Of a stretch of DNA of 64,000 bases, positions 6,708-24,319 are shown one piece after another. Positions within the stretch are counted from its first letter, which is position 1, and each line of letters starts with the position of its first letter. Source of the DNA: Oceanococcus sp. HetDA_MAG_MS8 (GTDB lineage: Bacteria > Pseudomonadota > Gammaproteobacteria > Nevskiales > Oceanococcaceae); assembly GCA_019192445.1 (NCBI GenBank), contig JAHCMK010000001.1, positions 124,001 through 188,000 of the forward strand. Direction: 5' to 3'. The notes below the pieces were generated by a model, which saw nothing but the letters and a program-made list of their open reading frames with translations, did no database searches and had not been told where the DNA came from. The position numbers and the translations under genes were made by a program.

Positions 6708-7943
6708 ATGGCTTTGATTGTGCACAAATATGGCGGCACCTCTGTAGGCTCTGCCGAGCGCATTGCGCATGTGGCCGACAAGGTTTGCCAAGCCCGTGCC
6801 CAAGGGCATGATGTGGTGGTTGTGGTGTCGGCTATGAGTGGCGAAACCGACCGCCTTACGGCGCTGGCACGGGAACTGAATCCACAGATTCCAGCCCGTG
6901 AAATGGACGTGCTGTTGTCGACCGGCGAACAAGTCACCATTGCCCTATTGGCCATGGCATTGGAAGCTCGCGGGCAAGCTGCTCGAAGTTACACCGGGCC
7001 GCAGGTGCGTATTCATACCGACTCCGCGCATACCAAAGCGCGAATCACCCGTATTGACGACGAGAAAATTCGAGCCGACCTAGGCGCGGGGCGCGTGGTT
7101 GTTGTGGCTGGATTCCAGGGCATGGACGAGCACGGCAACATCACCACCTTAGGGCGTGGGGGTTCAGATACCACCGCAGTCGCACTGGCAGCGGCGCTCC
7201 AGGCTGATGAATGCCAAATCTATACCGACGTAGACGGGGTCTACACCACCGACCCGCGTGTAGAGCCTAAGGCTCGGCGTCTGAATCGGATCACCTTTGA
7301 AGAAATGTTGGAGATGGCCAGTTTAGGTTCCAAGGTGCTGCAAATTCGCGCCGTGGAGTTTGCTGGCAAATACAACGTCCCGCTGCGGGTGCTGTCGACT
7401 TTTGCAGATGGCCCCGGCACTTTGATTTCCCTTGAGGATAACCCTATGGAAGCCCCCGTTATCTCGGGCATTGCCTTTAACCGCGACGAAGCACAAATCA
7501 CGGTCTCACAGGTTCCAGATCAGCCTGGAATTGCCTCCTTGATTCTGGGTCCGGTGGGCGCTGCCAACATCGAAGTGGACATGATTGTGCAGAACGTAGG
7601 GGACGATGAGCTCACCGACTTCACCTTTACCGTGCACCATCGCGATTACGAGCGAGCCATGGAAGTGGTGCGCAAGACCGCAGACGAGCTGGGCGCGGCC
7701 GATGTGCGCGGAGACGACAGCATTACCAAGGTCAGCGTGGTCGGAGTAGGTATGCGTAGCCATGCTGGGGTCGCCAGCAAAATGTTCTCGGTTTTGGCAG
7801 AGGAAGGCATCAACATCCGCATGATCTCTACCTCTGAGATCAAAATTTCGGTGGTGCTCGCGGACAAGTATTTGGAGCTGGCGGTGCGCGCTCTGCACAA
7901 GGCCTTTGCCTTAGAAGAAGACCCGGTTCAGGAAACCATGTAA
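6708..7943 (+). CDS. lysC: Aspartate kinase with two ACT domains
   Basis: Aspartokinase phosphorylates aspartate, the first step to lysine, methionine and threonine. The 411-residue protein starts with the kinase signature VHKYGGTSVG, has STGEQVT and GRGGSDTTA in the amino-acid kinase fold, and ends with tandem ACT domains (SQVPDQPGIAS near residue 270 and VGVGMRSHAGVA near 345) that bind feedback inhibitors. It is a monofunctional kinase of normal length, without a homoserine dehydrogenase extension. It lies 2 bp after alaS and 63 bp before csrA, the alaS-lysC-csrA order known from Pseudomonas and relatives. Confidence 0.98.
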   Translation: MALIVHKYGGTSVGSAERIAHVADKVCQARAQGHDVVVVVSAMSGETDRLTALARELNPQIPAREMDVLLSTGEQVTIALLAMALEARGQAARSYTGPQVRIHTDSAHTKARITRIDDEKIRADLGAGRVVVVAGFQGMDEHGNITTLGRGGSDTTAVALAAALQADECQIYTDVDGVYTTDPRVEPKARRLNRITFEEMLEMASLGSKVLQIRAVEFAGKYNVPLRVLSTFADGPGTLISLEDNPMEAPVISGIAFNRDEAQITVSQVPDQPGIASLILGPVGAANIEVDMIVQNVGDDELTDFTFTVHHRDYERAMEVVRKTADELGAADVRGDDSITKVSVVGVGMRSHAGVASKMFSVLAEEGINIRMISTSEIKISVVLADKYLELAVRALHKAFALEEDPVQETM

Positions 7944-7991
7944 ATTAGCTGTCATAAAGAGGAGGCGCGGCATGCCGCGCTAGCGCATGCT

Positions 7992-8010
7992 GGAGGATCT
8001 ACAAGGATGT
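7992..8010 (+). promoter_or_regulatory. CsrA-binding leader over the csrA start codon
   Basis: The bases TACAAGGATGT at 8000-8010 match the high-affinity CsrA consensus RUACARGGAUGU except for its first position, and they include the csrA ATG (8007). A second GGA-containing sequence, TGGAGGA at 7991-7997, is the likely Shine-Dalgarno sequence. CsrA bound here would block ribosome access. A 16-bp perfect palindrome (7965-7980, GCGCGGCATGCCGCGC) lies just upstream and may form a hairpin. Autoregulation is inferred from the motif. Confidence 0.7.
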
Positions 8011-8210
8011 TGATTTTGACCCGGAAGCGGGGCGAGACCGTTGTGATTGGCGACGATGTCGAGGTGACCGTGTTGGGCGTAAAAGGCCAGCAGGTGCGCA
8101 TCGGTATTGCGGCGCCCGACGACGTCGCCATTCACCGCGAAGAAGTTCTTAAGCGCCAAGACCAGCCGGCGCCTGAACTGGCCCCAGGCGTCGAAGAGCA
8201 GCCCGATTAA
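8007..8210 (+). CDS. csrA: Carbon storage regulator CsrA/RsmA
   Basis: CsrA is a dimeric RNA-binding protein that represses or activates translation by binding GGA motifs in mRNA leaders. The 67-residue sequence is canonical: [24 protein letters not shown] at the start with the R44-type RNA-binding segment later ([12 protein letters not shown]). The C-terminal tail [12 protein letters not shown] is variable in the family. It lies 63 bp downstream of lysC, and its start codon sits inside a near-consensus CsrA target, pointing to translational self-control. tRNA-Ser follows 136 bp downstream. Confidence 0.98.
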
Positions 8211-8346
8211 ACTGCGGTCAAACGCCCACAGGCCGCAAGAAATGGGTTAAACTTCGCGGCCTTGAATGAAGCGGGCCTACGGCCCGTCGGCGGTAACTAT
8301 CGCCCGCCCGTGCTGGCCCTGCTAGCCGAGCACTTAAGAAGCAAAC

Positions 8347-8439
8347 GGAGAAGTGGCCGAGTGGCTGAAGGCGCTCCCCTGCTAAGGGAGTATGGGGTTT
8401 ATAGCCTCATCGAGGGTTCGAATCCCTCCTTCTCCGCCA
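8347..8439 (+). tRNA. tRNA-Ser (anticodon GCU)
   Basis: The 93-nt gene folds as a class II tRNA. The acceptor stem GGAGAAG (8347-8353) pairs with CTTCTCC (8429-8435), followed by discriminator G and an encoded CCA (8437-8439). The anticodon stem CTCCC/GGGAG encloses the loop CTGCTAA, with anticodon GCT at 8381-8383. A long variable arm and GGTTCGAATCC T-loop are present. It reads AGC and AGU codons. csrA followed by tRNA-Ser is a conserved gammaproteobacterial neighbourhood. Confidence 0.98.
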
Positions 8440-8770
8440 TTCTTGCAGCTGCTGCTTAACCCCTATCACCTGTACTGCGTTGAACTGGCTCTTGCTAGAG
8501 CTCGAGACTTCGAGTGCTGCCAGCTTCGCTGTTTATTGCGTAGCTCTGAAAGCCCTCCGGTCGTCGCCCGGCCGGTTTTTCGGCCCCTATCAGGTCTCTC
8601 AAGCTGCACGCTAGCTCAGTGACTTTGGGCGGCGGGCTGATTGGATTTTCTAGGGGTGCATCCGTTTGGCGGCAATATCCGCATCAATGAGCTAAGACGA
8701 CGGCTTTCCTAGATCAGATGAAGGATCTTGGCGTCGCCACAACGCTCATAATTTTTGGAGATTGCACCAG
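8440..8770. other. Intergenic region after tRNA-Ser
   Basis: This 331-bp stretch has no convincing coding sequence. Apart from the terminator-like hairpin at 8557-8580, which probably ends the tRNA-Ser transcript, it holds the promoter region of the lipoprotein gene that starts at 8771, with GGAG at 8757-8760 as ribosome-binding site. I could not pick a confident -35/-10 pair. Confidence 0.5.
8557..8580 (+). terminator. Rho-independent terminator, tRNA-Ser transcript
   Basis: CCGGTCG pairs with CGGCCGG (7 bp including one G-U pair) around a 5-nt loop and is followed directly by TTTTT. It lies 118 nt after the tRNA CCA, so the primary transcript would carry a sizeable 3' trailer. Confidence 0.65.
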
Positions 8771-16694: not shown

Positions 16695-16822
16695 CGGCGA
16701 ATGAGTGCCTGACCACGTTCGTCTTGGGGAGGCGTCATCGGGCGTGCTAAATATTTGCGATAGGCCCAGGTTGAGGCATCCACTAAGCTGAAGGGCAATT
16801 GAGGAGACAAAGAGGACACCCC

Positions 16823-18415
16823 ATGGCGACTTTTGCCCGTGTTGCTGCGCTTGTAGCAGCGGCTGTCATGCCGATATTGGCCCAGGCCCACACGGACGCC
16901 AAATTTCTTGGCAGTTCCCAGGATCCGCTGAGCTATGAACTTCGGCAACAGATACTGGAATTGGCGCGGCAGGATCTGCGACTAGCGGCCTCCAGTGAAG
17001 AGCCGGCTCCTGACGTCGATGGGCCGATTACGGCTTTGCCGCCGCCACAAGATCTTGTGCTGGATCGGATGAATGTGTGGTTGAATCCCACCTATTGGAG
17101 CACCTGGGTTCGCGAAGCTCTGGTGAATGGCAATGTTCAGATTCCGGCACCTACCGATATTGTGCGTCCGGAGATTTGGACGCCTAATGTCACGGTGGAG
17201 CCCGGTTCATACATTTCCAGCCTGCCACTGGCCATCGAAGATCTGTCCGGCCTGACTTACACCTGGGATGGGGCGGAAAAGTCGCTATTGGACTTCATGC
17301 ACACCACCGAAACCGACATGGTGCAATTCGCCGTGAATGGCGAGGTCATTGGCGCTCTGTATAACAATGGCTATCAAGAGCACACTCGCCATCAACCCTG
17401 GTCGGTGACTAAAACCTTTATCGCCGCCACTGTCGGTATTGCCTATGACCAAGGCCTAGTCCGCGATCTGCAGCAGCCCATCGAAGACTACATTCCTGAA
17501 TTGGTGGGTACGGCCTGGGAAGGCGTCACCATTGAAAACATCCTGCAAATGGAATCGGGTGTGCACTGGGATGAAGATACGCCCGTACTGGCACAAAACA
17601 CCCAGGTACAGCAATGGATTGATGTATTGCTGGATAACGCCACGAATGGTGCTTTGGGCCAAACCCGCAACGAATTTCTCATGAGTCTGCCCAAGGTGTA
17701 CGAGCAGGGCACCGAGTTCCGCTACAACAGCGGGAACACGCAGGTCTTGGCCTGGATGTTGGAGAACATTTATGGGCGGCCTTACAACGAGGTGATTTCG
17801 GAGCTGCTTTGGAAGCCCATGGGGGCTTATGGCGATGCCCGCATGATTGCCGACCGTGAAGGCAGCGTCATTGCCTCCCAGGGTTTGTACGCGCGTGGCT
17901 ACGACTTTGTGCGCTTTGGCGAGTTACTGCGGAATAAAGGAGTCAATACCGATGGGCGCCGAGTTATTTCGCAGGAGTGGATAGACAAGCTGACGCAAAT
18001 GACCGAGGTCTCTGGTGGTGGTTATGCTTACCAAACCTGGGATTCCGATGTGAGTCCGGATGCATACAAGGCCAGTGGATTCCAGGGCCAGAAAATCACC
18101 GTGGTTCCTTCGGCCTGCACGACAGCCGTGCGCATGTCGCACTCTTTTGGCCTGGACTATCGCGAAGGGGACGATCCATTGGACCCCAACGCCTACGGCT
18201 TCAGCACCAACTTCAGCTCGGATGAATGGGTGGCTGTCGTTCAGGCGGTGGTGGCGCAGCGCGGGGGTTGCGATGGCGCGACGCGGTTGGCAGCAGCAGA
18301 AGCAGGCCAAGCCGACGGCAGCGGCGGCGCTGTGGGTTTGTGGGCGTTCATTCTGGTTCTAATCACAGGCATGGCAAGACGCCGGCCTGGGACACCCGCG
18401 ATCCAGCGGTCATAG
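16823..18415 (+). CDS. Secreted SxxK serine hydrolase (beta-lactamase/CubicO family) with GlyGly-CTERM
   Basis: A 530-residue exported hydrolase of the class C beta-lactamase/esterase/6-aminohexanoate-dimer-hydrolase superfamily. The nucleophile motif is S194-V-T-K197 (PWSVTKTFI), with the second motif Tyr301 in RYNSGN. A signal peptide ends at ILAQA (residue 22). About 160 residues precede the catalytic domain. The C-terminus is a GlyGly-CTERM signal: GSGGAVGLWAF, hydrophobic stretch, then MARRR, implying rhombosortase processing and surface display, as for the subtilase at 9736. ATG 16823 follows GAGG by 7 bp. It may be an esterase, amidase or peptidase; the substrate cannot be read from sequence. 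Confidence 0.88.
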   Translation: MATFARVAALVAAAVMPILAQAHTDAKFLGSSQDPLSYELRQQILELARQDLRLAASSEEPAPDVDGPITALPPPQDLVLDRMNVWLNPTYWSTWVREALVNGNVQIPAPTDIVRPEIWTPNVTVEPGSYISSLPLAIEDLSGLTYTWDGAEKSLLDFMHTTETDMVQFAVNGEVIGALYNNGYQEHTRHQPWSVTKTFIAATVGIAYDQGLVRDLQQPIEDYIPELVGTAWEGVTIENILQMESGVHWDEDTPVLAQNTQVQQWIDVLLDNATNGALGQTRNEFLMSLPKVYEQGTEFRYNSGNTQVLAWMLENIYGRPYNEVISELLWKPMGAYGDARMIADREGSVIASQGLYARGYDFVRFGELLRNKGVNTDGRRVISQEWIDKLTQMTEVSGGGYAYQTWDSDVSPDAYKASGFQGQKITVVPSACTTAVRMSHSFGLDYREGDDPLDPNAYGFSTNFSSDEWVAVVQAVVAQRGGCDGATRLAAAEAGQADGSGGAVGLWAFILVLITGMARRRPGTPAIQRS

Positions 18416-18457: not shown

Positions 18458-19957
18458 TCAATGCGCCATGGCCGTGGCTTCCGAGCCCGCAACATGACCG
18501 GTCATGGTGTGGGTGCTTGGCTGTTTGGCGCCTGCGGCATGCGGCATCATTGTGGCGGGATTGCCTGATATGGCGCCCTCTGCCTGCGGCACCTCTACGC
18601 GTATTCGATGACCAATTAAGCGTCCATCAGCCATCCAGATGCTGTGATCGTCAGCATTGAGAGTGGCATGAATGTAGTGCGTGCCAGGACTGAGATAGGG
18701 CAGATGAAACCATGGTCCATAGAGTCGGGCCACCTTTTCGCCATCCACATAAAGGTGCGCATGGCCCTGGCCGGGCTGACTTTGTTTGCCGGAGGTCTCG
18801 GGGCTGAAGCGAAAATTATCCGTGCGTACATGCACATTCCAACCGCTCATGGAGTCCGGTTCCACCTTAAGCTGGACTCGTGGCCAGGGCTTGGGGGCGG
18901 CAATAGGCTGATGGGCATGGGCTTTGCCTTGGCTGCTACGCATGTCCATGCTGGGCATCGTCATTGTCACCGGCTGGGCTGATTGCCATTGGCTTTGGCC
19001 GGGCAGCTGGGTGAGCTCGCCGGCAACCCGCAAAGGGATAGACCAATGATGCAGGGTCTGCGCTGCCGAAGCGTCGCTTGGCTCGGTGGTCGTCGGGCGA
19101 CTGCGTGGGTCCAGCCAGGTGTAGGTCTGGCTGTTGCTGATCTTGATCCATTGCGGCTGCGTGGCCTCAAGATCGGATTGTTTAAAGCGGCTGCGTCCCC
19201 ATGCACGCCAAGTTTTACTGGTGGCATTGGCGAATATGCCTTCAGGGCCAACGCGCACAAAGGGCTCGGCATCGACTCCAATCACGGTCACGGGCTGTTG
19301 GCTTTGATTCCGCAACATAAACGCGTCTACCGGGCCGGGGATAAGGCCAATGCTGATTTGCGGGCTTAAGCGCCCACTACGGGTTAGCTGACTCTGCCAT
19401 TGCCCCTGCGCCTGCGTCTGCTGGAAATGCCCGCTGAGTCTGAACGGGCTGCCATCTGCACGACGGGTAGGGATTTCCCAGGGCGGGGGAGTGTAGTCGG
19501 CTCCACTATCGTTGCCGGCAGCGGGGTCAGGACTGAGCCGGGGGTCAAACCAGCCCCAGGCCGTCTCTGTACTCACTTGTCTCCAACGCGGAGGCGCCTG
19601 TGGGTCTTGGGCTGCCTGCGGGGTAGCTAAGCCTGCGACCGAGTAGGTGTTGTACCAGGCAGCGGCGTTCATGTCGGCGTGCACACCCGCAGGTCCAATT
19701 CGCAGAAAAGCCCGTCCTCGAGGATCCAACACTTCTAAGGCCTGCTCAGAATTGTTACTGAGCAGCACCTGTGGAGCCAAGGAATGCCGAATTTGCACCT
19801 CCACATCTGCGGGTAGTTCCAGCGATGCGTCTAATAGCGCTTGCCAGCGTGGGCCAGCGCCATGGGCCATCAGCGCCGCCGGCCATAAGCCCAGAACAAG
19901 CCAAACAAGTAGGGCCAGCCGTTGTGGCTGGCCCTGTAGGTCGTCACGCCTAGACAT
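18458..19957 (-). CDS. Secreted His/Met-rich protein with internal duplication, partner of the copper oxidase
   Basis: A 499-residue exported protein (signal peptide ending near LMAHG, residue 33) of no family I can name. Residues about 50-177 and 199-315 are tandem copies of one domain: both carry a RIGPAG or RVGPEG turn, an aromatic W/Y segment, a P-R/Q-W strand, W-G/T-W-F/L-DPR and a closing G-H/E strand. A Met/His-rich linker (331-350, with MTMTMPSMDM and AHAH) leads to a conserved-looking domain at 357-456 (GHAHLYVDGEKVARLYGPWFHL, TLNADDHS), and the tail 457-499 is again rich in His and Met. Its ATG overlaps the oxidase stop (TAATG), so translation is coupled. I infer a copper-binding accessory or delivery protein for that oxidase. 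Confidence 0.75.
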   Translation of the reverse strand: MSRRDDLQGQPQRLALLVWLVLGLWPAALMAHGAGPRWQALLDASLELPADVEVQIRHSLAPQVLLSNNSEQALEVLDPRGRAFLRIGPAGVHADMNAAAWYNTYSVAGLATPQAAQDPQAPPRWRQVSTETAWGWFDPRLSPDPAAGNDSGADYTPPPWEIPTRRADGSPFRLSGHFQQTQAQGQWQSQLTRSGRLSPQISIGLIPGPVDAFMLRNQSQQPVTVIGVDAEPFVRVGPEGIFANATSKTWRAWGRSRFKQSDLEATQPQWIKISNSQTYTWLDPRSRPTTTEPSDASAAQTLHHWSIPLRVAGELTQLPGQSQWQSAQPVTMTMPSMDMRSSQGKAHAHQPIAAPKPWPRVQLKVEPDSMSGWNVHVRTDNFRFSPETSGKQSQPGQGHAHLYVDGEKVARLYGPWFHLPYLSPGTHYIHATLNADDHSIWMADGRLIGHRIRVEVPQAEGAISGNPATMMPHAAGAKQPSTHTMTGHVAGSEATAMAH

Positions 19958-22239
19958 TAGCTAGCGCAGTTGAAGCTACCGCCATTGACCTGCACTGGGA
20001 GTGAGGTGGACGGTACACGACCATCATCGTTTTCGGTAACGATGAAGAGCATGTATTGGCCTGGCGGAGTGACCGCCGCTTGCGTCGGCATTTGCACTTC
20101 TAGGCCATTTGCGGAGCGCGACACGATGGGTAGCACCACGCTGCGTTGGTCACCATCAATCAGGTGAGTGAGGGTGGGCCGGCGGATCAGAACCACTTCC
20201 TCAACCTGCGCGGCATCCGGTGTGTTCAGACTAAAGCGTTGCCCTACATCGACACGGCTGGGTGCAGACTGGAGCTGCGGGCGATCGCCGAACACATAGG
20301 GCGGGTGGTAAATCTCAAAGGAAGGATCCCGGCCGAAGTTGGGCGATATACCTAGTCCAGTGAGGTTCAGACTGTAGGCATAGGCCGTGTTGATGGGGGC
20401 GTGGCCACCGACCAGCACACGACCGTCGGGGAGCAAAACGGCGGTGTTGTGATAGGTGCGTGGCTTATTCGCATCGGCCATCAAGCGCCAGGTCTCAGTG
20501 TCTGGGTCGTAAAGCTCGGTCTGGGTGATGGGGAAGGCTGTGCCGGGTAGAACCACCTCATCATGCGTCGCACCCGAGAACATCATGACCTCTCCGGTCG
20601 GCAGGAGCACGGCTTGGCCGTACCAGCGACCTTGGTTCAGGGCGCCCGTCAACCGCGAGCGATACTCCATTTGGTCACCATCCATGCGCACCGTGTCGAT
20701 GCGTGACTGAGCTACGCCCACAAAGGCCCCAGGACTATTCACGGTGACGGCACCCAAGACCCCACCAGCAGTGAGGAACTCTGCTTGGTCATATTCGCCA
20801 GTATCTGGGTTGGGCTTCAGGGGCATCATTAAGCTGGTAGCACTGCCGCGGAAACCGCCGGCAATGGCGTTGATCACTGTGCCTACGGCGTCCGAGCTAA
20901 GCCCCTCCACCAAAGGATCAAACAAGGCGCCTGGCTCCGAAGATAGCGCGTCTAGAACGCCGGTGACGGTGTTGCTCAGCGCGTCGGCAATGTTTGTGTT
21001 GGTGGGGTTCAGAGCTTGGGTTAACTGGCCAAGTCCCAATTCGTTCAGCTCTAATGGCAGCCCGGCATATCCCAGGTCGGTCCAGCTCTGGGTGTCCGGG
21101 TTGTAGGCTCCAACGATATTCCACAGGGCTTGGTCATAGGCTTGCCCGAAGGGATTGAAGGCCTGACCGCCACCGTTGTAGTAGACCTGCCCATTGGGCA
21201 GCAAGTGCAGCCTTGGATATAGGGGTAATGAGCGTTGTGCGGCAGGGCCATTATCCGACCACACACCACAACCCAGATCGAAGGTTTCGGTTTGCACCAC
21301 ATTGCGACCCGACTGCAAGGGTTCATTGGGATACACAGGCTTAAGCAATTTGCTCACGCCACTGGCAACAAACTGGTCGCCGTTCGCCAAAGACACCAGG
21401 GTGGGGTACCAGCGACCAAAATTCATGTCGCCGGTTTGGAACCAGTTGTTGCTGGCTGGATCAAAAACGCGCGAGGCGTTCAGACCCTCTAGCTCGACCA
21501 CACCAATGTTGAAAGGCGTATCAATGCCTGGCTCTGTGTAGTAATTGGTACCACCAACGGCCAACACGGCGCCGTTAGGCAGGGCGTTGATATCAGCGCA
21601 GAATAAAGAACCACTATTGCGACGCGGGTCATTCGCGTCTGTATTCAGCAAACAACCGGGTAACAAGCAGTTAGCTTCGCCGTCTTCGGCGCCGCCATCA
21701 ATGGGAGCCGGCAAGGTCCAGCTGGCCTCACTCTCGCCCAGCCCCAGAACGCGGGTTTGGTCGTTGACCAAGACCTGGCCACCTTCAGCCACGATGCTAA
21801 ATTCCGCGCTTTCGGTACCTTCTAAGGCGCTGAAAAACAGCAGGTCATCACTGCCCAGCAGGGCGATGGTGCCAGCACCGGGCTTGCAGTTGATGGGGCG
21901 GTCGGCGTCGTCAAACTCGCAGTTTTCGCTGCGCACCGATTGCCGCAGCGGATTGTCAAAGGGAATGTCGTTGCCGAGTTGCGCACCGTCCTCGCTGCGG
22001 TCGTAGATGACCGGCTCTTCGAAAGGTGGGGTGAAGCCCCCTACCTCTAAACACTCATTGGCGCTGCATTGAACACCTTGAATGGGCGCTTTGGATTGCA
22101 ATCCTGCGCGCGCGGCCGGAAGGCCGTTGGGGCCAAGCTCGGCGTCGCGGTTGGTTGCTCCGACATCGTCTTGACGCCCGCCACCACAGGCAGATAAGAC
22201 GAGCGCGCTGGCCAGTATGGCTGCATGCTTCCGTGTCAT
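19957..22239 (-). CDS. Copper-radical oxidase lipoprotein (galactose/glyoxal oxidase family, kelch)
   Basis: A 760-residue lipoprotein (lipobox LSAC, Cys18) with a kelch propeller and a C-terminal galactose-oxidase-like E-set (DUF1929) domain. These enzymes oxidise alcohols or aldehydes to aldehydes or acids plus H2O2 with a mononuclear Cu and a Tyr-Cys radical cofactor. All ligands align with Fusarium galactose oxidase: Cys214 (SLFCADI, for Cys228), Tyr278 (GRWYPT, for Tyr272), Tyr596-His597 (RTYHNTAVLLPDG, for 495-496) and His692 (LTHLIDGDQR, for His581). An insert at about 395-465 has no counterpart I know. GAGGAGA precedes ATG 22239. It is first in an operon with the His/Met-rich secreted protein. 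Substrate unknown. Confidence 0.88.
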   Translation of the reverse strand: MTRKHAAILASALVLSACGGGRQDDVGATNRDAELGPNGLPAARAGLQSKAPIQGVQCSANECLEVGGFTPPFEEPVIYDRSEDGAQLGNDIPFDNPLRQSVRSENCEFDDADRPINCKPGAGTIALLGSDDLLFFSALEGTESAEFSIVAEGGQVLVNDQTRVLGLGESEASWTLPAPIDGGAEDGEANCLLPGCLLNTDANDPRRNSGSLFCADINALPNGAVLAVGGTNYYTEPGIDTPFNIGVVELEGLNASRVFDPASNNWFQTGDMNFGRWYPTLVSLANGDQFVASGVSKLLKPVYPNEPLQSGRNVVQTETFDLGCGVWSDNGPAAQRSLPLYPRLHLLPNGQVYYNGGGQAFNPFGQAYDQALWNIVGAYNPDTQSWTDLGYAGLPLELNELGLGQLTQALNPTNTNIADALSNTVTGVLDALSSEPGALFDPLVEGLSSDAVGTVINAIAGGFRGSATSLMMPLKPNPDTGEYDQAEFLTAGGVLGAVTVNSPGAFVGVAQSRIDTVRMDGDQMEYRSRLTGALNQGRWYGQAVLLPTGEVMMFSGATHDEVVLPGTAFPITQTELYDPDTETWRLMADANKPRTYHNTAVLLPDGRVLVGGHAPINTAYAYSLNLTGLGISPNFGRDPSFEIYHPPYVFGDRPQLQSAPSRVDVGQRFSLNTPDAAQVEEVVLIRRPTLTHLIDGDQRSVVLPIVSRSANGLEVQMPTQAAVTPPGQYMLFIVTENDDGRVPSTSLPVQVNGGSFNCAS

Positions 22240-22377: not shown

Positions 22378-23610
22378 CTACAAGGCCAGTGCGCAAGCCT
22401 GTGCACTGGCCCAGGCCCATTGGAAGTTGTAGCCCCCGAGGTGCCCGGTCACATCCAATACCTCACCGATGAAATGCAGTCCTGGAACTTTGCGCGATAC
22501 GAAGGTCTTGGAACAGACCTCACGCGTATCAACCCCGCCCAAGGTGACTTCGGCGGTGCGATAACCTTCGGTGCCGCTGGGGCGAATGGGCCAGTTGGAT
22601 AGGGTGTCCACTGTTTGCCGAAGCCACTTTCCCTGGACTTGCTGCAATGGTCTGTCAGCGAGCATGGTGTGGCACAGAGTATGCGCAAAACGTTTGGGGA
22701 AAAGCTGGCTGAGGCTGGTGCTCAGCTGCTGTTTAGGCTGTTTGTGGCTTTGCTCGGAGAGCCATTGTTCGATGTCGACCTCCGGTAGCAGCTCGATCCT
22801 TAAATCTTGACCGGGCTGCCAGTATGAAGAGATTTGCAAAATCGCCGGGCCACTCAGGCCGCGGTGGGTAAGCAGCATGTTGCCCTGGAACTGCTGCTTG
22901 GCCGTACTGGCGCGGATGGGCAAAGACAGGCCGCTCAGCGCTGCCCAGGGCGAGGCCTGATCTCCAGACAGTGTGAGTGGCACCAACCCAGCTCGGGTGG
23001 GTTGCACGCGATGACCGAATTGGCTTGCGACTTTATAGCCCCAGCCAGTCGCACCCATTTTAGGAATGGATAAGCCCCCTGTGGCGATGACAATTTTGGC
23101 GCACTGCAGCGGCCCCAAGCTCGTCTGCACAGCGAAGCCTTCGCTGCTGAGCGGCTGCAAGTCAGACACACTGCAGTGGGTGCGAATCTCGACATGACCA
23201 GCTTGGCATTCCTCAAGGAGGAGCCTCACGATGTCTTTGGAGCTGTTATCGCAGAACAGTTGGCCGGCCTCTTTTTCATGGAAGGCAATGTGATGCGCCT
23301 GGACCAATGCGATGAAGTCGGCCGGTGTATACCGCGCCAGGGCCGATTTGCAAAAATGTGGGTTGGCAGAGAGGAAGTGGTGCGCTTGCACATCCAGGTT
23401 TGTGAAGTTGCAGCGGCCACCGCCGGACATCAGGATTTTTTTGCCCACGCGGTTAGCATGGTCCACCACCAGTACCTGCAGTCCGCGTTGGGCTGCGACC
23501 GCGGCGCACATCAGCCCTGCAGCGCCGGCTCCGATCACCAATACGTCTGGACGACTGTGTTTGGGACCCAATGGTTGACCGGGATGGGAATTATTCTTGA
23601 GCAGGCTCAT
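22378..23610 (-). CDS. BaiN/RdsA-family NAD(P)/FAD-dependent oxidoreductase (HI0933-like)
   Basis: A 410-residue flavoprotein of the HI0933/YhiN/BaiN group. It shows the N-terminal dinucleotide motif VIGAGAAGLMCA, followed by the family hallmark NRVGKKILMSGGGRCNFTN, IATGGLSIPKMGATGWGY, and the C-terminal FAD motif GEVLDVTGHLGGYNFQWAWASA. Members are putative reductases (for example in bile-acid dehydroxylation in gut bacteria); the physiological substrate in most species is unknown. The ATG at 23610 lies inside the 3' end of the methyltransferase gene (20-bp overlap), so the two are translationally linked. An upstream extension is possible but would overlap the methyltransferase further. Confidence 0.87.
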   Translation of the reverse strand: MSLLKNNSHPGQPLGPKHSRPDVLVIGAGAAGLMCAAVAAQRGLQVLVVDHANRVGKKILMSGGGRCNFTNLDVQAHHFLSANPHFCKSALARYTPADFIALVQAHHIAFHEKEAGQLFCDNSSKDIVRLLLEECQAGHVEIRTHCSVSDLQPLSSEGFAVQTSLGPLQCAKIVIATGGLSIPKMGATGWGYKVASQFGHRVQPTRAGLVPLTLSGDQASPWAALSGLSLPIRASTAKQQFQGNMLLTHRGLSGPAILQISSYWQPGQDLRIELLPEVDIEQWLSEQSHKQPKQQLSTSLSQLFPKRFAHTLCHTMLADRPLQQVQGKWLRQTVDTLSNWPIRPSGTEGYRTAEVTLGGVDTREVCSKTFVSRKVPGLHFIGEVLDVTGHLGGYNFQWAWASAQACALAL

Positions 23611-24319
23611 GCGGGGTTTTGCGCAATAGGGCAATGGCTGGGGTGGGGAAGTGTAGAGCGGCGTGATGCTGCTGTGCCCACACGGCAAAGCTGCGGTGAG
23701 CGTAGAAATGGACGTGTGTGGGGTCGTTGCGATACTGCCACTGCGCGAACCTAGCCCGGCTGAGTAAGGGCTGGGTTTGGATCAGTAGTACGCCGCCTGC
23801 TCGCAGCATGGACCAGAGTCTGCGTAGCTCTGCAGCTGGTTTATGCCAGTGTTCTGCAACCTCGGTACAGGTGATTCCCGCATAGCTCTGGCGAAGAACC
23901 CCCGCTTCTGGGGCGAACATCGGATCGTAGATGGCGACCTCGTAAGCGGCCCGGCTTAGCATCTGCGCAAGCGCCGGGCCCGGCCCACAGCCGTAGTCGA
24001 GCACCTGAGCCGGCCTCGGACAGGCCTGTGTGAAGGCATTAAACGCGGGCTCTAGAAAGCGGCGGTAGCCAGGGTCTTGAGGGTCGTTGTGATGTTTGCA
24101 GTATTCGGCGTACTCAGCCTCTGCGCTTAGATAAAAGGCCGGATCCAAGGCTATCAATTCACAATGCGTGCACTGCCAGTAGCGCCGCACGCCCACACGG
24201 AAAGCGTCCCCGCGGCTCGCGCCGCATAGGCCGCAGGATTGGGTTTGCCTTGGAGTCGGAGTACTGACGAGAAATACGCCTGCGGTGAGGTGATGGCCGC
24301 CTGGATGTTGCTGTGCCAA
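23591..24319 (-). CDS. Class I SAM-dependent methyltransferase with N-terminal zinc-ribbon-like segment
   Basis: A 242-residue protein with two Cys pairs at the N-terminus (CGLCG and CTHC, about residues 29-54) that could hold a zinc ion, then a Rossmann methyltransferase core: VLDYGCGPGPALAQML (motif I, about 110-125), IYDPMFAPEAG (motif II), LRAGGVLLIQTQP (motif IV-V). Similar two-part proteins are annotated as methyltransferases of unknown substrate. PhoX lies 42 bp upstream with a strong hairpin in between; the BaiN-like gene overlaps its end. It is not obviously linked in function to either. Confidence 0.8.
   Translation of the reverse strand: MAQQHPGGHHLTAGVFLVSTPTPRQTQSCGLCGASRGDAFRVGVRRYWQCTHCELIALDPAFYLSAEAEYAEYCKHHNDPQDPGYRRFLEPAFNAFTQACPRPAQVLDYGCGPGPALAQMLSRAAYEVAIYDPMFAPEAGVLRQSYAGITCTEVAEHWHKPAAELRRLWSMLRAGGVLLIQTQPLLSRARFAQWQYRNDPTHVHFYAHRSFAVWAQQHHAALHFPTPAIALLRKTPHEPAQE

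Follow-up and report, generated by a model that had tools for sequence, protein, structure and literature searches.

In a 64,000-nucleotide stretch of DNA from Oceanococcus sp. HetDA_MAG_MS8 (hereafter the window), the gene of a lipoprotein copper-radical oxidase of the galactose oxidase/GlxA type (760 residues; 19957–22239, minus strand) is followed directly by the gene of a secreted partner protein of 499 residues (18458–19957, minus strand). The original prediction, made from the sequence of the window, had read the pair as an oxidase operon with a coupled, His/Met-rich partner that may act as a copper donor or scaffold. The observation is confirmed, with stronger support than that first reading could draw on and on different grounds: the two genes are kept together in distant genomes, and relatives of the partner occur beside genes of the copper protein CopC.

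Architecture of the oxidase and its partner

The open reading frame of the oxidase was confirmed at 22239–19957 on the minus strand. GAGGAG stands 5′ of its start and the protein carries a lipobox (LSAC/G). In sequence matches, a Kelch propeller (Kelch_6, 37.8 against a cut-off of 25.3) precedes a GO-like early-set domain (PF09118, GO-like_E_set; E 2.8e-17, 63.3 bits against a cut-off of 25), and this is the only PF09118 match in the source genome. The best structure match is GlxA of Streptomyces (4unm/5lqi, best E 1.5e-32). The full set of galactose oxidase copper/radical residues had been proposed for this protein, and Cys214, Tyr278, Tyr596, His597 and His692 are found exactly at these positions, align with 4unm/5lqi and are invariant across 28 homologues. 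Cys214–Tyr278 is the candidate cross-link and Tyr278, Tyr596, His597 and His692 are the candidate ligands. The identity of the protein as a copper-radical oxidase (AA5/galactose oxidase type) is clear at the level of sequence, and its substrate is probably a primary alcohol or aldehyde. It scores 182.7 bits with the GlxA equivalog model NF052501, under the curated cut-off of 800, and is therefore not a GlxA equivalog.

The stop codon of the oxidase (TAA, 19959–19957) and the start codon of the partner (ATG, 19957–19955) share one base, confirming the proposed TAATG overlap (19955–19959, minus strand). The partner is composed of three parts: a signal peptide that ends in LMA and is followed by His32, two repeats (approximately residues 46–330) and a C-terminal module (residues 336–499). 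His32 (codon 19862–19864, minus strand) is the predicted mature N-terminal residue (LMA/HGAG, cleavage site judged by eye). Repeat 1 (approximately residues 47–182; 19412–19819, minus strand) contains a GWFDPR motif and, when predicted alone, forms a β-sandwich (predicted local distance difference test (pLDDT) 87.6, predicted template modelling score (pTM) 0.82). Repeat 2 (approximately residues 196–330; 18968–19372, minus strand) is also a predicted β-sandwich, and is the unit that recurs, as a single copy, in the CopC-neighbouring proteins of Actinomycetota. The two repeats match each other in hhalign (99.8%, 24% identity), identifying them as tandem repeats. It is this tandem of β-sandwich repeats, not His/Met content, that is the trait of the family.

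In line with the unknown family assigned to it originally, the 499-residue partner has no Pfam (up to E 1), NCBIfam or PDB sequence match, and searching Pfam with 25 aligned homologues returned one weak match (DUF5849, E 0.005) and none for the rest. No CopC domain (PF04234) was found in the partner up to E 1 or in 26 homologues up to E 0.01, and neither the partner nor these 26 homologues matched Sco (PF02630) or PCu(A)C (PF04314). Foldseek returned no significant match for a single repeat and one match with E under 0.001 for the whole partner (probability 0.35, TM 0.1). VIA-align placed the Ig-like domains of the TRAP translocon first (Z 5.7), with PmoB, AMO and PmoD at Z about 4. All of these VIA-align matches lie within the noise described for the tool, and we thus claim no fold kinship to any of them.

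Inheritance as a two-gene unit

A single-protein scan of genome contigs with the partner as query gave no match, so that an alignment-based scan was needed. Run over 84,980 species, it returned 29 partner loci, from Alcanivorax, Alloalcanivorax, Marinobacter, Salinisphaera, Pseudonocardia, Actinomycetospora and metagenome-assembled genomes labelled Moraxellaceae, Nevskiaceae and Lysobacterales. Two of the loci (L090 and L092; L and G numbers denote loci and genomes) are halves from one genome. The two peptide patterns of the scan favour close relatives, and distant members are under-sampled, which the other searches partly offset. In 28/28 loci that include upstream sequence, the gene immediately before the partner, in the same orientation, encodes an oxidase of the window type; full-length partner homologues are hence found beside such oxidases, not mostly away from them. 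Spacing was measured in 27 of these loci: in 19 the two genes share 1 or 4 bases, in one they are separated by 2 bases and in seven by 7–26 bases. In the remaining locus (L091), both genes are apparently frame-shifted.

The surroundings of the pair vary by genus, with purH and gatB flanking it in Salinisphaera, other genes in Marinobacter, and a gene for a HI0933-like flavoprotein in the window and in Alloalcanivorax. Because the flanking genes differ between genera, the unit is the oxidase–partner pair itself. The pair also occurs on two Pseudonocardia plasmids, and plasmid pHP-187 of Marinobacter adhaerens carries it with a one-repeat partner (oxidase followed by partner at L192 4794–7699, plus strand) that again has an apparent mature N-terminal His after its signal peptide. 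Oxidase and partner distances are correlated in Gammaproteobacteria (r 0.94, 0/2000 permutations), a correlation that shared species history by itself also produces. The two genes are translationally coupled, or nearly so, and are inherited together across unrelated surroundings. Mere co-transcription of genes linked by descent or co-transfer, with no functional interaction, is accordingly very improbable: the linkage is kept over two phyla, on plasmids and in varied surroundings, with the 1- or 4-base overlap. One copy does favour it, as a partner gene persists in G021 (L052 8944–9900, minus strand) without an oxidase, at the purH/gatB site that the pair occupies in Salinisphaera, and this copy has lost its N-terminal His.

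The reverse direction, from oxidase to partner, was followed in 398 sampled Pseudomonadota genomes. An intact close oxidase (above 1100 bits) is present in four of them, with the partner adjacent in 4/4; where the oxidase score is below 120 bits, there is no partner. In a fifth genome, G159, all that is left is an in-frame fusion of the oxidase N terminus to partner repeats; at L147, such a fusion is encoded by an open reading frame of 365 residues (7489–8586, minus strand), an apparent deletion remnant of the two-gene unit. Adjacent pairs are also found in three Actinomycetota genomes (G539, G540 and G554), and in G726 and G588 the genes concerned lie near contig ends or on separate contigs. 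Taken together, these results strongly support a coupled partner of unknown family that is specific to the oxidase.

Additional copies were observed. Pseudonocardia endophytica has a second two-repeat partner without an oxidase of its own about 6 kb from the pair (L148 6664–7962, plus strand), and in Marinobacter sediminum a second oxidase precedes a one-repeat partner whose apparent first mature residue is His (L152 4605–7498, plus strand).

A candidate copper-handling accessory

The His/Met richness on which a copper role had been based is confined to one part of the protein. Residues 336–499 (18461–18952, minus strand), comprising a Met/His linker, a 'GHAHLYVDG..ARLYGPWFHL' domain and a Met/His tail, contain 8.5% His and 4.9% Met; the mature N-terminal part is ordinary in composition (His 2.0%, Met 1.6%). 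This C-terminal region is absent from every oxidase-linked homologue of determined length, the orthologous partners of Salinisphaera, Marinobacter, Alcanivorax and others being 305–346 residues long and ending after repeat 2. Judged by these comparisons, it is a separate module fused onto the partner in this genome. The module, in which the 'GHAHLYVDG..ARLYGPWFHL' motif is conserved, occurs on its own in further proteins from related genomes, one of them with a PCu(A)C match below threshold, and is predicted with low confidence in the window protein (pLDDT under 50). Its relatives weakly resemble DUF4399 (PF14347), in which a related 'GHAHLYVDG' module occurs, at 11.5 to 16 bits against a Pfam cut-off of 28; the window partner itself has no DUF4399 match, and we found no paper that gives this family a copper role, a single paper mentioning both terms once. 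The description as His/Met-rich therefore holds for residues 336–499 and fails for the mature N-terminal part and for the family, and we rejected His/Met richness as a conserved copper feature of the partners.

What is conserved is His32. Besides the start Met, it is the only His, Met or Cys residue conserved in at least 18 rows of the alignment, and it is present, directly after the apparent signal peptide (cleavage site judged by eye), in 24 of the 26 partners aligned. No Cys is conserved in this alignment. Beyond the aligned set, a plasmid-borne Pseudonocardia partner also has the N-terminal His (SASA/HGAAD). A His in this position chelates transition metals regardless of fold (PMC12537917).

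A second line of evidence comes from single-repeat relatives. With the partner profile, a search of 396 Actinomycetota genomes returned three full-length members and 45 genomes with one-repeat proteins. In 26 of these 45, the single-repeat gene has a CopC gene at most 7 kb away (about 0.3 expected by chance), and in 23 the distance is within 3 kb. The two genes are nearly always on the same strand, and one such CopC neighbour was verified as CopC–CopD. Among 27 single-repeat proteins inspected, the apparent first mature residue is His in 20 and Asp in 7, and 22 have WHDHR or WHDQR, mostly as WHDHRxHWM, which looks like a metal site. Such unannotated proteins, with apparent mature N-terminal His or Asp and WHDHRxHWM, stand beside CopC genes at L102–L128 and L131–L146, and likely constitute an undescribed copper protein family.

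As its closest relatives elsewhere lie beside CopC genes, the partner probably serves the enzyme as a dedicated helper in copper handling. The explanation that we favour, with about even confidence, is that it is an extracytoplasmic accessory that helps to load or mature the oxidase. The two-gene unit would then make an extracytoplasmic copper-radical oxidase together with its own copper-handling accessory. Once exported, the partner would bind Cu(II) through its N-terminal amine and His32, and would hold the copper or pass it to the nearby oxidase; this supply would promote metal loading and copper-dependent formation of the Cys214–Tyr278 cofactor. The His/Met-rich module gained in this genome may add copper-binding capacity and so reinforce the partner. 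The original proposal of a copper donor or scaffold is plausible and gains indirect support from the CopC neighbourhood of the single-repeat relatives and the conserved, apparently mature N-terminal His, whereas the Met/His content on which it was based is not conserved in the family. More tentatively, the partners could represent an undescribed copper-loading or cofactor-maturation family, derived from a CopC-operon domain, with a mature N-terminal His and organized as a two-gene unit across two phyla.

Several observations weigh against a copper-handling role. Copper binding by the partner is a prediction. The N-terminal His is missing in 2 of the 26 partners, both actinomycete, and no second His is conserved in the alignment to complete a histidine brace, for which a second His is needed (PMC10952591). 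Oxidase partners have GWFDxR in place of the WHDHRxHWM of their CopC-linked relatives, and thus have not kept the WHDHR histidines. Structure searches return only a generic β-sandwich. Sco genes, unlinked to the pair, are present in 11 of 12 pair-bearing genomes examined and could supply the copper. Finally, no adjacent partner could be detected for related actinomycete oxidases in G662 (two), G929, G584 and G573 (two). Since the four intact close oxidases of the Pseudomonadota sample are all paired and several actinomycete ones of the wider clade are not, the partner is nearly obligatory within the gammaproteobacterial clade and optional in more distant oxidases.

Some of these features would also suit a structural or anchoring subunit, whose β-sandwich repeats would hold the enzyme in position by attachment to it or to the cell surface, with no copper handling. 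Two Ig-like domains are predicted with high confidence, actinomycete partners bear a C-terminal transmembrane anchor, and ligand-like residues are not conserved apart from the N-terminal His. We regard this possibility as unlikely but worth keeping in view, because it leaves both the conserved, apparently mature N-terminal His and the CopC neighbourhood of the single-repeat relatives unexplained.

A contribution to catalysis instead of assembly, as a redox activator of the radical, a substrate-delivery domain or a protection from the H2O2 of the oxidase, seems improbable to us. The third gene of Salinisphaera oxidase operons encodes a secreted Cu/Zn superoxide dismutase (PF00080; L086 6897–7421, L083 4544–5122 and L085 6981–7505, all plus strand), which links the handling of reactive oxygen to the oxidase there, and the proposed function of DtpA with GlxA includes H2O2 removal (PMC4736821). 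However, the superoxide dismutase is limited to some Salinisphaera loci, and the partner has neither a conserved Cys nor a match to a known redox protein.

Comparison with known systems places the copper-accessory explanation in context. GlxA of Streptomyces, like the window oxidase, is an extracytoplasmic copper-radical oxidase with the five key residues, and is accompanied by Sco, ECuC and DtpA. Copper is required for its Tyr–Cys cross-link to form, and in vivo GlxA relies on copper accessories, with Sco and DtpA required for maturation under copper limitation (PMC4736821). The window partner differs in being unrelated to Sco by Pfam, and Sco is unlinked in the pair-bearing genomes. The contrast originally drawn with the separate chaperones of Streptomyces is partly softened, since in Frankia and Burkholderia sco adjoins glxA-type genes (PMC4736821); the idea of a linked copper accessory is thus already known, with a different protein. 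PmoD/AmoD of methane and ammonia oxidisers is likewise an unnamed periplasmic β-sandwich protein that is encoded with one copper enzyme and has paralogues beside copC and PCuAC genes (PMC6189053). PmoD, however, is marked by a CuA site and a pair of invariant Cys, whereas the partner has no Cys at all, and the fold similarity between them is at noise level (6cpd, Z 4.0). With CopC and other N-terminal-histidine metal proteins (PMC12537917, PMC10952591), the partner shares an apparent mature N-terminal His and, through its relatives, a place in CopC/CopD operons, but it has no CopC domain match and no second conserved His. The partner is best explained as a copper accessory dedicated to one enzyme, similar in concept to PmoD, from a family for which Pfam and NCBIfam have no model. 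We found no paper combining galactose oxidase with Marinobacter and Alcanivorax.

Copper supply and Cys–Tyr cofactor assembly in bacterial copper-radical oxidases are understood chiefly from Streptomyces, where Sco and DtpA are unlinked. A partner encoded one-to-one with its oxidase offers a minimal two-protein system for direct tests of loading and maturation, and the pair could improve recombinant production of copper-radical oxidases. The result also points to the unannotated, widespread single-domain family beside CopC in Actinomycetota as a likely new copper protein.

Neighbouring genes

At L074 and L076, a superoxide dismutase gene lies nearby on the opposite strand. In the window, a gene for a serine hydrolase of the β-lactamase fold (16799–18415, plus strand) is convergent with the oxidase–partner unit, and its product has a sub-threshold match to a C-terminal GlyGly-CTERM sorting signal (13.2 bits against 15.5). 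A PhoX-family protein (PF05787; 24362–25948, minus strand) with a weak Tat-signal match is encoded separately from the unit. Directly upstream of the oxidase lies the gene of the HI0933-like flavoprotein (22378–23688, minus strand), in the same position as in Alloalcanivorax, possibly reflecting a shared ancestral locus.

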